DNA of 64,000 nt from Streptomyces spinosisporus (GTDB taxonomy: Bacteria > Actinomycetota > Actinomycetes > Streptomycetales > Streptomycetaceae): positions 62,001-126,000 of the forward strand of contig NZ_JALDAX010000021.1 of assembly GCF_022698145.1 (NCBI RefSeq), in the 5' to 3' direction. The notes beneath the pieces are model-generated. The model ran no database searches. It was not told the origin of the DNA and worked only from the letters and a program-made list of their open reading frames with translations. Position numbers and translations under genes: made by a program. Below, in pieces: positions 2,330 to 9,537 of this stretch (position 1 is the stretch's first letter; each line of letters begins with the position of its first letter).

Positions 2330-2333
<4 letters not shown>
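1365..2333 (-). CDS. nuoH2: NuoH2, NADH-quinone oxidoreductase subunit H
   Basis: Membrane subunit at the junction between peripheral and membrane arms, 322 aa, helping to form the quinone chamber. Family landmarks visible are a [20 protein letters not shown] loop near residue 45, the [10 protein letters not shown] segment around 205 and several long hydrophobic helices. The GTG start (2331-2333) overlaps the nuoC2 TGA by four bases. It is shorter than the main-operon NuoH (454 aa), lacking the long C-terminal extension. It lies directly after nuoC2, where D, E, F and G would normally intervene. Confidence 0.93.
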
Positions 2334-4143
<1,810 letters not shown>

Positions 4144-4147
<4 letters not shown>

Positions 4148-5126: not shown

Positions 5127-5322
5127 GTCCGTGCCCTCGCTCCCTGGTGAACGGTGTCGTTCGACGATCTGTACGCACGGGAGTCTAGGCCCTGATAAAG
5201 AGACGGTAAGCAGCCCGTCGCGCCTTGAGATGTCCTCGATATGCCGGGGTGGGGTTTTCCCCAGGAGAGCTGGGCGGCCGACCTCATGGCGCGAGCGCTC
5301 GCCACGCGGCACGCTGACCCGT
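5127..5322. promoter_or_regulatory. Divergent promoter region nuoA2 / sensor kinase
   Basis: This 196-bp non-coding stretch must drive nuoA2 leftwards and the kinase gene rightwards. Two dyads are visible: GAACG-GTGT-CGTTC at 5149-5162 and GGGG-TTTT-CCCC at 5251-5262. The second has a counterpart upstream of the second kinase (7215-7224). I could not fix a convincing -35/-10 pair. Confidence 0.5.
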
Positions 5323-6561
5323 ATGACCGAACGACTCTCGCACCCGGCAGGGGCTCCCGGAGGCCCGGCGGGGGCTCCGGAAGGTGACGACCGCCTGCCC
5401 CCTGCCCGTTTCGCCTACGACCGGCAGACCTGGAAGGAGATCGCGCATCTCCTGGCGAACTTCCCGGTGTCGTTGATCGGGTTCATCTACGTCGTCACGG
5501 TGCTGTTCACGGGTTTCTGGCTGACGGTGACGGTGATCGGGTTCCCGCTGCTGGCGGCCGGTCTCGCGGGCGCGCGGCTGCTGGGCCGGATGGAGCGGGC
5601 GCGGGCCAGGAAGCTGCTCGGGGTGCGGGTGGACGAGCCGAGTCCGATGCCCGGGCGGGGCACCGGCTTTCTGCCGCGGCTGTGGATGCGGCTGAAGGAC
5701 CCGGTGGCCTGGCGCACGGTGCTGTACGACTTCATGCGGTTGCCCTGGGGCGTGCTCACCTTCGCCATCACGCTCACCTCGCTGTTCGTGCTGTGGCCGG
5801 TGCTGCCGTTCATCGCGCGGGGGCTGACCAACGCCGACCGGGCGATGGTGCGCGGGCTGCTGTCGCCCTCCGACGAACTGGAGCGGCGCATCGCGGAGCT
5901 GGAGTCGGACCGGGGGGTCGTCGTGGACACCGCCAACGCCGATCTGCGGAGGATCGAGCGCGATCTGCACGACGGGGCACAGGCCCGCCTGGTCAATCTG
6001 GCGATGGGGCTCGGTCTGGCCAAGGAGAAGCTCTTGGAGGACCCGGACGCGGCCGCGGACATGGTCGCGGAGGCGCACGGCGAGGTGAAGCTCGCGCTGC
6101 AGGAGCTGCGGGATCTGGCCCGGGGCATCCATCCGGCGGTGCTGACCGACCGCGGTCTGGATGCCGCGTTGTCCGCGGTCGCCTCGCGCTGCACCGTTCC
6201 CGTGAAGGTGACGGTCGACCTCGTTACGCGGCCGGCCGCGGCCATCGAGGGCATCGCCTACTTCACCGTCTCCGAGCTGCTGCAGAACATCAGCAAGCAC
6301 AGCGGGGCGAAGAACGCGTCCGTCGAGGTGTGGCGGTCGAAGGAGCGGTTGCTGATCCAGGTCGAGGACAACGGCCACGGGGGTGCGCGGCTCGACGGCG
6401 GGACGGGGATGCAGGGGCTCGCGGACCGGCTGGACGCCGTGGACGGGCTGTTCGTCATCGACTCGCCGCAAGGCGGGCCGACCGTCGTCACGGCAGAACT
6501 GCCGTGGCGCGACCGCGCGTCCGGCGACGCCGCCGCCGCGGGCGCGGAGCAGCCCCGGTGA
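5323..6561 (+). CDS. Membrane sensor histidine kinase (HisKA_3 type), first of a paralogous pair
   Basis: 412 aa, ATG start 5323. Residues 40-165 hold a membrane sensor region with hydrophobic helices around 47-85 and 140-165 (a 'putative sensor' domain type common in Streptomyces). Residue 216 is the likely phosphorylated His in RRIERDLHDGAQARLV. The HATPase part follows: N-box in FTVSELLQNISKHSG and G-box in QVEDNGHGG/GTGMQGLADRLDA. It autophosphorylates and should pass phosphate to a NarL/LuxR regulator, most simply the one at 8866. From residue 190 to the end it is almost the same as the kinase at 7336. Signal unknown. Confidence 0.9.
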   Translation: MTERLSHPAGAPGGPAGAPEGDDRLPPARFAYDRQTWKEIAHLLANFPVSLIGFIYVVTVLFTGFWLTVTVIGFPLLAAGLAGARLLGRMERARARKLLGVRVDEPSPMPGRGTGFLPRLWMRLKDPVAWRTVLYDFMRLPWGVLTFAITLTSLFVLWPVLPFIARGLTNADRAMVRGLLSPSDELERRIAELESDRGVVVDTANADLRRIERDLHDGAQARLVNLAMGLGLAKEKLLEDPDAAADMVAEAHGEVKLALQELRDLARGIHPAVLTDRGLDAALSAVASRCTVPVKVTVDLVTRPAAAIEGIAYFTVSELLQNISKHSGAKNASVEVWRSKERLLIQVEDNGHGGARLDGGTGMQGLADRLDAVDGLFVIDSPQGGPTVVTAELPWRDRASGDAAAAGAEQPR

Positions 6562-6732
6562 GGTCCGGTGAATCCGCGGGCCGGACCGGAGGATCTCCGG
6601 TGCGACTCGAAGGGGTCCCTGGAGGACCCGAAGGGGTCCCCGGCGGGGCTCGAAGGGGACTCGGTGCGGCCCAATGGACCTCCGACGAGGCCCGAAGAGG
6701 ACTCAGTGCGACCCGATGGACCCCCGACGAGG

Positions 6733-6988
6733 CCCGAAGAGAGCTCGGTACCACCCGATGCATCCCCCGGCGGGACCCGAAGGGGGATCCGGCGGGACCC
6801 GAAGAGGCCCCCGGCGAGACCCGAAGAGGACTCGGTATCACCAGATAAATCCCCGGCGAGCCCGAAGAGAACTCGGTACCACCCGATGCATCCCCCAGCG
6901 GGACCCGAAGGGGGATCCGGCGGGACCCGAAGAGGCCCCCGGCGAGACCCGAAGAGGACTCGGTATCACCAGATAAATCCCCGGCGAG
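6733..6988. repeat. 128-bp tandem duplication (2 copies, 2 mismatches)
   Basis: Copy 1 is 6733-6860 and copy 2 is 6861-6988. I found two differences by eye (6743/6871 and 6769/6897). Each copy is built of sub-units of 43, 22, 22 and 41 bp starting CCCGAAG. The near-identity points to a recent duplication or active homogenisation. Confidence 0.92.
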
Positions 6989-7026
6989 GCCCGAAAGGGA
7001 CTCCGGCGAGGCCCGAAGAGGGCTCG

Positions 7027-7199
7027 GCGAGCCCGAAGGGGGCCGCAGTGAGGCCCGGTAAGTCTCCAGTGCGACCCGACGGCGGCCGCAGCGAGGCCCC
7101 GTGAGTCCCCACCGCGACCCGACGGCGGCCGCAATGAGACCCAGTCAGTCTCCACTGCGACCCGAAGGCCGCCGCAATGAGGCCCCGTGACTCTCCAGT
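7027..7199. repeat. 43-44-bp imperfect tandem repeat, four units
   Basis: Units are 7027-7070, 7071-7113, 7114-7156 and 7157-7199, followed by a decayed fifth. The common core is GCGACCCGACGGCGGCCGCA followed by a variable TGAG...AGTCTCCAGT-like half. They are related to, but distinct from, the 128-bp block just upstream. Confidence 0.85.
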
Positions 7200-7335
7200 G
7201 CGGCCCGCAGGGTAGGGAAAACCCCCCTCCCAAGACGCCTACGGACTCCATGGTCCGGGGAGCTGCGGGGCGGGACCGTGGAGGTGGGCAGGAGAGCCGC
7301 GTAGGCCGGCAGGACGAGTAGAACGGACGACGCCG

Positions 7336-8700
7336 ATGGCCACGGAGTACGGACAGGGCTACGGGCACGGTTACGGGTACGACGACGGGCTGGACCTCGG
7401 CCCCCGGCGCCGGCTGCCCGCGGGTCTGCGGGCGCCGTTCGAGGCGCGCAGCTGGCGCGAGTTCGCGTATGTGCTGCTGAGCCTGCCGATCGGCGTCACG
7501 CTCTTCGTGTACGCCGTCACGATGGTCGCCCTCGGCGCGGGCCTCCTGGTGACGTTCCTCGGCATTCCGGTGCTGGCCGCGGGGCTGGCCGGCTGCCGGG
7601 GCTTCGGGGCGTTGGAGCGGGCGCGGGCGCGCGGGCTGCTGGGCCTGGAGGTCGCCGACCCCGAGCCGCTGCGGATGCGGAAGTCCGGCGTGATGGCCTG
7701 GATGGGGGCCGTGCTGAAGAGCGGCACCTCGTGGCGGACGCTGCTGTACTCGCTGCTGCAGTTCCCCTGGTCGGTCTTCTCGTTCGTGGTCGCGGTGAAC
7801 TTCTGGGCGTACGGCTGGGCCCTGCTGACGTATCCGCTGTGGTTCTGGCTCTTCCCGGTCTACGGCGGCCAGGACGGGCTTCAGCTCTACGGCGACACGA
7901 CGCACAGCATCTACCTGGACAACCCCTTCGAGATCACCGTGACGGCGCTGGTGGGACTGATGTTCACGCTGGCCACGCCGTGGATCGTGCGGGCGCTGAC
8001 GATGGTGGACCGGCTGATGGTGCACGGGCTGCTCGGCCCGTCGCGGCTGTCGGCGCGGGTGGTGGAGCTGGAGTCGGACCGGGGGGTCGTCGTCGACACC
8101 GCCAACGCCGATCTGCGGCGGATCGAGCGCGACCTGCACGACGGGGCGCAGGCCCGCCTGGTGGCGCTGGCCATGGACCTGGGGCTGGCGAGGGAGAAGC
8201 TGACGGAGGACCCGCAGGCGGCGGCGCGGATGGTCGACGAGGCGCACGGTGAGGTGAAGACGGCGCTGCAGGAGCTGCGGGACCTCGCGCGCGGCATCCA
8301 TCCGGCGGTGCTGACGGACCGCGGTCTGGACGCCGCGCTGTCGGCGGTCGCGTCGCGCTGCACCGTGCCGGTGCAGGTCGAGGTGGATCTCGCCGAGCGG
8401 CCGGCGCCGGCGATCGAGGGGATCGCGTACTTCACGGTGTCGGAGCTGCTGCAGAACATCAGCAAGCACGCGCGGGCCACCTGGGCGGCGGTGGATGTGT
8501 GGCGGGTGGAGAACCGGCTGATGGTGCAGGTCGTGGACAACGGCGTGGGCGGAGCGGATGCTTCCGGCGGCTCGGGTCTGGGCGGGCTCGCCGAACGCCT
8601 GGACGCCGTGGACGGGATCCTGGTGGTGGACTCACCGGCCGGCGGCCCCACCCGGGTCACCGCGGAACTCCCCTGGCGCGGGGAGCGGACGCTCGGCTGA
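7336..8700 (+). CDS. Membrane sensor histidine kinase (HisKA_3 type), second of the pair
   Basis: 454 aa, ATG start 7336. The start is Gly/Tyr-rich (GQGYGHGYGYDDG), followed by a membrane sensor region with helices around 46-88, 140-175 and 198-222. His268 in RRIERDLHDGAQARLV is the likely phosphorylation site. The ATP-binding part shows the N-box ELLQNISKHA and G-boxes VVDNGVGG and GSGLGGLAERLDA. The catalytic half matches the upstream kinase almost residue for residue, while the sensor halves differ, as expected for a duplicated kinase that now reads a different signal. The response regulator at 8866 follows 165 bp later. Confidence 0.9.
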   Translation: MATEYGQGYGHGYGYDDGLDLGPRRRLPAGLRAPFEARSWREFAYVLLSLPIGVTLFVYAVTMVALGAGLLVTFLGIPVLAAGLAGCRGFGALERARARGLLGLEVADPEPLRMRKSGVMAWMGAVLKSGTSWRTLLYSLLQFPWSVFSFVVAVNFWAYGWALLTYPLWFWLFPVYGGQDGLQLYGDTTHSIYLDNPFEITVTALVGLMFTLATPWIVRALTMVDRLMVHGLLGPSRLSARVVELESDRGVVVDTANADLRRIERDLHDGAQARLVALAMDLGLAREKLTEDPQAAARMVDEAHGEVKTALQELRDLARGIHPAVLTDRGLDAALSAVASRCTVPVQVEVDLAERPAPAIEGIAYFTVSELLQNISKHARATWAAVDVWRVENRLMVQVVDNGVGGADASGGSGLGGLAERLDAVDGILVVDSPAGGPTRVTAELPWRGERTLG

Positions 8701-8865: not shown

Positions 8866-9537
8866 GTGGAGGACAGGGTGCGGGTGGTCATCGCCGAGGA
8901 TTCAGTGCTGCTCAGGGAGGGGCTGACCCGGCTGCTGACCGACCGTGGGCACGATGTCGTCGCCGGGGTGGGCGACGGCGACGCGCTGATCAAGACCATC
9001 ACCGAGCTGGACGGCCAGGGCGAGCTGCCCGATGTCGTCGTCGCGGACGTACGGATGCCGCCGACCCACACCGACGAGGGGGTGCGCGCCGCGGTGCAGC
9101 TGCGCAAGGCGCACCCGGGCCTGGGCGTGCTCGTGCTGTCGCAGTACGTGGAGGAGCGCTACGCCACCGAGCTGCTGGCCGGCTCCAGTCATGGCGTCGG
9201 CTATCTGCTGAAGGACCGCGTGGCCGAGGTCCGTGAGTTCGTCGACGCGGTGGTGCGGGTGGCCCAGGGGGGTACCGCGCTGGACCCGGAGGTGGTCGCG
9301 CAGCTGCTCGGGCGCAGTCGTAAGCAGGATGTGCTGGCGGGGCTGACGCCCCGGGAGCGCGAGGTGCTCGGGCTGATGGCGGAGGGCCGGACCAACTCGG
9401 CGATCGCGCGCCAGCTCGTGGTCAGTGACGGTGCCGTCGAGAAGCACGTCAGCAATATCTTCCTGAAGCTCGGGCTGTCCCAGAGCGACGGGGATCACCG
9501 GCGGGTGCTCGCGGTTCTCACCTACTTGAACTCATGA
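8866..9537 (+). CDS. NarL/LuxR-family response regulator
   Basis: 223 aa. I chose the GTG at 8866 because a GGGGGG ribosome site sits 9 bp upstream and the protein then starts directly at the receiver domain; an ATG at 8821 in frame lacks such a site. Receiver: acidic pair E11-D12, phospho-acceptor D61 in VVADVRMPP, K116 in YLLKD. The LuxR DNA-binding helix-turn-helix is around 162-206 (LTPREREVLGLMAEG, VEKHVSNIFLKLGL). It is the only regulator beside two kinases and is probably their shared output. Targets unknown; its own and the kinases' promoters are candidates. Confidence 0.9.
   Translation: MEDRVRVVIAEDSVLLREGLTRLLTDRGHDVVAGVGDGDALIKTITELDGQGELPDVVVADVRMPPTHTDEGVRAAVQLRKAHPGLGVLVLSQYVEERYATELLAGSSHGVGYLLKDRVAEVREFVDAVVRVAQGGTALDPEVVAQLLGRSRKQDVLAGLTPREREVLGLMAEGRTNSAIARQLVVSDGAVEKHVSNIFLKLGLSQSDGDHRRVLAVLTYLNS

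Follow-up and report, generated by a model that had tools for sequence, protein, structure and literature searches.

Why should most of the gap between two sensor kinase genes be filled with tandem repeats, and is such a field a conserved regulatory device or ordinary repeat DNA? The question arises from the window, by which we mean the whole stretch of 64,000 bp of Streptomyces DNA analyzed here, where open reading frames and Pfam matches reveal two kinases with Sensor and HisKA_3 domains, followed by a LuxR-type response regulator, all reading in the same direction:

5323 to 6561, plus strand: k1, abrC1-like sensor histidine kinase gene (open reading frame; 412 aa; TGA stop at 6559-6561)
7336 to 8700, plus strand: k2, abrC2-like sensor histidine kinase gene (open reading frame; 454 aa; Pfam Sensor and HisKA_3)
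8866 to 9537, plus strand: abrC3-like response regulator gene, receiver plus LuxR/GerE (open reading frame; Pfam Response_reg and GerE over 8869-9534)

The start of k1 was set by us at the ATG at 5323, within a frame open from 5131, and that of the regulator at the GTG at 8866, as in the preliminary description, within a frame open from 8821. k1 matches Pfam Sensor (PF13796) and HisKA_3 (PF07730), with HATPase_c under its cut-off. All 19 named loci of the first set of relatives belong to Streptomyces, the closest being S. plumbidurans, with which the regulator shares 99.6% identity over 222 aa. Two Sensor-domain HisKA_3 kinases and a LuxR/NarL-type regulator, in an order shared by the relatives, characterize an AbrC1/AbrC2/AbrC3-type set (SCO4598/97/96), a name given here by gene order and by domains from the literature; the link to SCO4598/97/96 starts from the nuo-adjacent gene order and agrees with published accounts. 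In the accessible portions of those accounts, the S. coelicolor SCO4598-SCO4597 region has the same order HK-HK-RR, whereas its abrC1-abrC2 gap measures 114 bp against 774 bp in the window and an array goes unmentioned (PMC4428217, PMC9739842). Upstream, the nuo-like cluster includes an open reading frame on the minus strand (2330-4147), by our own reading a putative NuoC, with a repetitive Ala/Glu/Arg-rich extension at 3054-3447 (periods 84-189 bp).

The repeat field that the preliminary description had placed between the kinase genes is real. TRF arrays overlap across 6604-7211, which is most of the gap, with periods mainly of 21/22, 42-44, 64, 86/87 and 128 bp and a top score of 530:

6604 to 7026, no strand: array part A, 21-22 bp units within 42-44, 64 and 128-bp higher-order units (TRF)
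6732 to 6987, no strand: two 128-bp copies, 98% identical, at 6732-6859 and 6860-6987 (repeat search)
7032 to 7203, no strand: array part B, four 43-bp units, each starting CCCGAMGGSSGCCGCARYG (repeat search)
6517 to 7210, no strand: the tail, from k1 residue 398 to the element before k2, 694 bp (13 bp in L149, the nearest array-free relative)

The boundary between the two parts was set by us. In part B the units start at 7032, 7075, 7118 and 7161, that is, in 43-bp steps, and TRF reports 43 bp x 4.3 at 7027-7211. The 128-bp pair is the most recent duplication seen, and the repeat search returned no inverted repeat. The self-match score of 6517-7210 is 124.5, while the best of 100 dinucleotide shuffles reaches 16.5 (z 81), so that the array stands well above composition-based chance. 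The exact heptamer CCCGAAG occurs 13 times in 6562-7206, and the earlier count of about 18 variants is fair once degenerate copies are included. According to the part of a survey available to us, bacterial satellites consist of head-to-tail units of 10-200 nt in at least four copies, and S. coelicolor carries 38 of them, or 4.2 per Mb (PMC6749651). The window array resembles these satellites in unit length, head-to-tail arrangement and copy number; it differs in that the same part of the survey adds a criterion of internal regularity, while the 21/43/128 hierarchy of the window is degenerate and known from one strain (PMC6749651).

To judge from its letters, the array looks non-coding, since GC is flat across codon positions (0.71/0.69/0.73 for 6562-7206 versus 0.73/0.49/0.92 in k1 and 0.74/0.48/0.95 in k2). 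A 178-aa frame is open at 6568-7104, and a small protein could in principle be hidden there; we regard this as extremely improbable given the flat GC, repeat units of 43, 64 and 128 bp that are not divisible by 3 and thus disrupt the frame, the lack of a Pfam match for the 178-aa frame at E 0.001, and the lack of a counterpart of the array in the genomes searched. With 40 of the 48 candidates from a first look at its own genome scored, the 631-bp block has no match there but itself. A search for the same unit elsewhere in the genome, which had been proposed as a check, was run with a degenerate pattern allowing up to 2 mismatches and gave 34 matches. The array accounts for 11; the 23 outside do not exceed the 29 obtained with a reversed-pattern control, which gives no sign of a unit scattered through the genome. 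Across 199 genomes of the genus including its own, with two candidates scored per genome, 18 had a match to the block, which outside the own genome covered pieces of 28-62 bp. When k1 plus the gap was used as the query, in which the gap begins at base 1240, none of the other matches listed for 378 scored genomes extended past query base 1229 of 2013.

Relatives of the locus were assembled from successive searches that contributed 19 + 30 + 80 + 30 loci (n=159). From one search the 110 best-matching places among those listed were taken, with genome G152 skipped as partial, so that the sample leans to closer relatives. k2 lies beside k1 in 157 of the 159 loci. In L102 (genome G017, contig C836) the 3 kb downstream of k1 contain no k2, unlike other loci with enough flank. 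Removal of L102, L148 (identical with the window), L089 (contig end) and 12 duplicates left 144 loci including the window. Their tails range from 1 to 694 bp with a median of 63.5, and that of the window is the longest. A tail was counted as an array if z was above 8 and its score exceeded every shuffle; 46 tails below 40 bp were left unscored and counted as array-free, and L105, which contains a run of N, was not counted as an array. By this criterion 29 of the 144 loci carry an array and 115 do not, and gain and loss on a FastTree kinase tree require at least 24 changes of state. Nearly each of the 29 arrays has its own, unrelated unit: 8 of 406 array pairs show any match at E 1e-3, three of these only within the first 45-76 bp, and the best self-match shift of the 28 arrays other than that of the window varies from 6 to 79 bp. 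On the coding strand the arrays tend to be rich in A and poor in T (AT skew above 0 in 23 of the 29), as by eye is the leader after the element.

These counts bear on the first role suggested for the field, that of many binding sites for the neighboring response regulator, here AbrC3, or for a nucleoid protein. The many regular copies and a period of 21-22 bp, close to two turns of the helix, agree with such a role, whereas the privacy of the units, which are not conserved even in S. plumbidurans, the scatter of the shifts among the other arrays, the 115 array-free loci and the lack of dispersal in the genome make it highly improbable. Sequence-specific binding and RNA roles alike predict conservation of the unit, and are not supported because such conservation was not seen. 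What is conserved is instead the element just downstream of the array, which is absent inside the array at up to 2 mismatches:

7211 to 7253, plus strand: conserved element before abrC2, GGTRGGGAAAACCCCC followed by a block ending in CATGG (AGACGCCGACGG.CTCCATGG-like)
5251 to 5262, minus strand: GGGGAAAACCCC (GGGGTTTTCCCC on the plus strand), upstream of k1, an exact match with the core common to the k2 element

The element before abrC2 is present in 140 of the 144 loci, with its core GGGAAAACCC exact in 134 of these 140, and we infer a promoter role for it. The repeats of the window stop where it begins, at 7211, and leave it intact at the array edge, which fits the array end at 7210 given in the preliminary description. 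Upstream of k1, 56 of the 144 loci have GGGTTTTCCC or GGGAAAACCC, 34 have a looser form and 54 have none, while a different span and pattern give 68 loci with the core and 75 without; exact GGGGAAAACCCC has three sites in the own genome, the abrC1 site among them. In S. coelicolor, as far as the available text of one study goes, abrC1 and abrC2 are co-transcribed by qRT-PCR, AbrC3 leaves expression of both kinases unchanged, an argument against its acting at the abrC2 element, and separate expression of the kinases was not seen, which speaks against a strong promoter of abrC2's own in that species (PMC4428217).

In 35 of the 140 loci that have the element, the abrC1 stop codon lies inside it, and this arrangement follows tail length, with 31 of 46 loci at tails of up to 35 bp, 4 of 40 at 36-100 bp and 0 of 54 above 100 bp. 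In L149 (genome G193, k1 identity 90.6%), for example, k1 ends at the TAG of GGGTAGGGAAAACCCCC, that is, within the element. The window retains a TAG at 7213-7215, the site of the abrC1 stop in many compact relatives, while its own k1 already stops at 6561; the last k1 codons of the window therefore appear to derive from added DNA. An element that contains the abrC1 stop bears on the idea, put forward for S. coelicolor in the accessible part of the same work (PMC4428217), that neither AbrC kinase is expressed without the other, and the element may be regarded as the more useful by-product of the comparison.

The position of the element also bears on whether the array could act as a structured RNA leader of the second kinase gene, as had been suggested, or as another non-coding RNA. 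The MFE of -314 kcal/mol (z -2.4), which none of 20 shuffles reaches, speaks for structure. Nevertheless, this reading seems very unlikely to us: folding is only mildly above that of the 20 shuffles, a comparison of 6400-7500 with Rfam gave no hit up to E 1, the array is without an alignable relative for covariation, and the array ends before the element begins, so that a transcript starting at the element would leave the array out.

How old the array might be can be judged from the nearest relatives. S. plumbidurans KC 17012 (L019), whose k1 protein is 95% identical, likewise has a long tail with its own array in the same place, yet the tail measures 319 bp and its best self-match shift is 58 bp (two halves of ~29 bp by eye). 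The two tails match significantly only over the first ~44 bp (91%), which correspond to the final codons of k1 as far as its stop; beyond the k1 stop the best match has an E of 0.024, whereas the flanking genes are 94% identical. By eye, a GAGGCC(C)GAAG core is common to both arrays. The five relatives that come next on the FastTree tree (L149, L151, L152, L153 and L040) are free of arrays, their tails measuring 13, 35, 13, 13 and 30 bp, and in L149 the gap is 154 bp, so that abrC2 of the window lies ~620 bp further from abrC1. Length and unit thus turn over fast between relatives, from 694 bp in the window to 319 bp in S. plumbidurans and 13 bp in L149, compared between species with one genome per species. 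A minisatellite left behind by the kinase duplication, as the preliminary description had it, does not agree with this distribution: k2 stands beside k1 in nearly all loci while the five nearest relatives outside the pair formed by the window and S. plumbidurans are array-free, which indicates that the array arose long after the duplication.

Arrays by the same criterion are also found in control spacers, for which 60 shuffles were used compared with 100 for the tails: 23 of 90 k2-to-regulator spacers, 22 of 110 stretches of 500 bp upstream of k1 and 12 of 139 leaders from the element to k2, which differ in length and of which the stretches upstream of k1 include coding DNA. A hot spot at the abrC1-abrC2 joint was considered but is not supported by this main criterion, as 29/144, or 29/98 when tails of at least 40 bp are taken, is not clearly above 23/90 and 22/110. 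When a self-match score of 28 or more is required, a stricter cut, the counts become 18/144 at the tail, 14/90 between k2 and the regulator, 8/110 upstream of k1 and 2/139 in the leader, so that the joint comes out above two of the three controls. The strongest of the repeat-bearing leaders is that of L140, with an 85-bp exact self-match at a shift of 8 bp. GNA triloops closed by C-G form mini-hairpins, and these were tried as a seed of slippage. They are in excess in 27 other arrays (62 motifs versus 25.9 expected, z 7.3), but repeats multiply any motif, and the idea was not used; counted per sequence, the motif occurs in 15 of 27 arrays versus 19 of 45 non-array tails, with z values of 2.2 for the window and 0.6 for L019.

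The stricter counts are part of what speaks for a selected, expandable spacer, in which the array would insulate abrC2 from abrC1 transcription by distance or termination and its length would tune the AbrC1:AbrC2 ratio. In the interval from the abrC1 domain to the abrC2 element, arrays come up repeatedly, with at least 24 changes of state, while the element is kept, strong arrays are commoner here than upstream of k1 or in the leader, and the 114-bp gap of S. coelicolor is co-transcribed according to the portion of the study at hand (PMC4428217). On the other hand, the neighboring spacer between k2 and the regulator is about equally array-rich, also for strong arrays, and the 46 tails below 40 bp argue that no spacer is needed. 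A rut site is a C-rich, G-poor stretch of transcript, and a rho-dependent terminator was rejected as a candidate, since GC skew over 6517-7210 is 0.0 and the window array thus lacks the C-over-G excess of a rho site. We consider a selected spacer unlikely, although a weak advantage of distance is conceivable, given that none of the 144 loci exceeds the window in array length.

Taken together, the block is best explained as a young, lineage-specific, non-coding minisatellite arising by near-neutral slippage, a reading to which we assign a probability of roughly 0.8. This was among the ideas raised at the outset, and it is supported by the repeat structure, the single genomic copy, the compact nearest relatives and the different arrays in other lineages. 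Against it count the A-over-T tendency of the arrays, the stricter array counts at the joint and the slight folding advantage over shuffles. The array would have originated at the end of abrC1, directly upstream of the conserved abrC2 element, and would have been copied by slippage or unequal exchange, its growth moving abrC1 away from the intact element. While the array itself is presumably near-neutral, its likely single effect would be that ~620 bp of extra distance weaken abrC1-abrC2 co-transcription, possibly through weaker read-through into abrC2, which would then lean more on its own promoter. Such reduced coupling is plausible given a 774-bp gap with an intact abrC2 element, compared with the 114 bp that are co-transcribed in S. 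coelicolor. A bolder extension would see in the abrC1-abrC2 joint an evolvable tuning knob, where lineage-specific repeats repeatedly break the overlap of stop and element and uncouple transcription of the kinases, and where array length determines the AbrC1:AbrC2 ratio and, through it, antibiotic output; we hold this to be distinctly improbable. What stands before the presumed abrC2 promoter element looks like an ordinary fast-changing tandem repeat and not like a conserved regulatory device.

Repeat fields in Streptomyces spacers should therefore not be taken as regulatory arrays, as several of the spacers compared commonly contain arrays with units of their own. The surroundings had been described as otherwise tightly packed, which needs a caveat: a non-random sample of 364 kb from the own genome, consisting of the window and 15 further 20-kb stretches on three contigs, contains 8 merged arrays that measure 200 bp or more, 2 of them in the window, and the array studied here ranks third of the 8 by score. 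Arrays in several spacers, in the own genome and in the S. coelicolor survey suggest that the phenomenon is general and the window a long example of it. The largest of the 8, a 948-bp tandem array at 7508-8455 of stretch L193 (contig C45), is longer than that of the window and has an unrelated unit with a CTCAGACCTG core by eye. It is probably non-coding as well, since GC is flat by position and its neighbors are an open frame that ends at 7478 and an opposite-strand frame reaching 8640. On the same contig, at the start of stretch L194, a 310-bp array of period 89 (12-321) adjoins a frame that by our own reading encodes a putative histidine ammonia-lyase.
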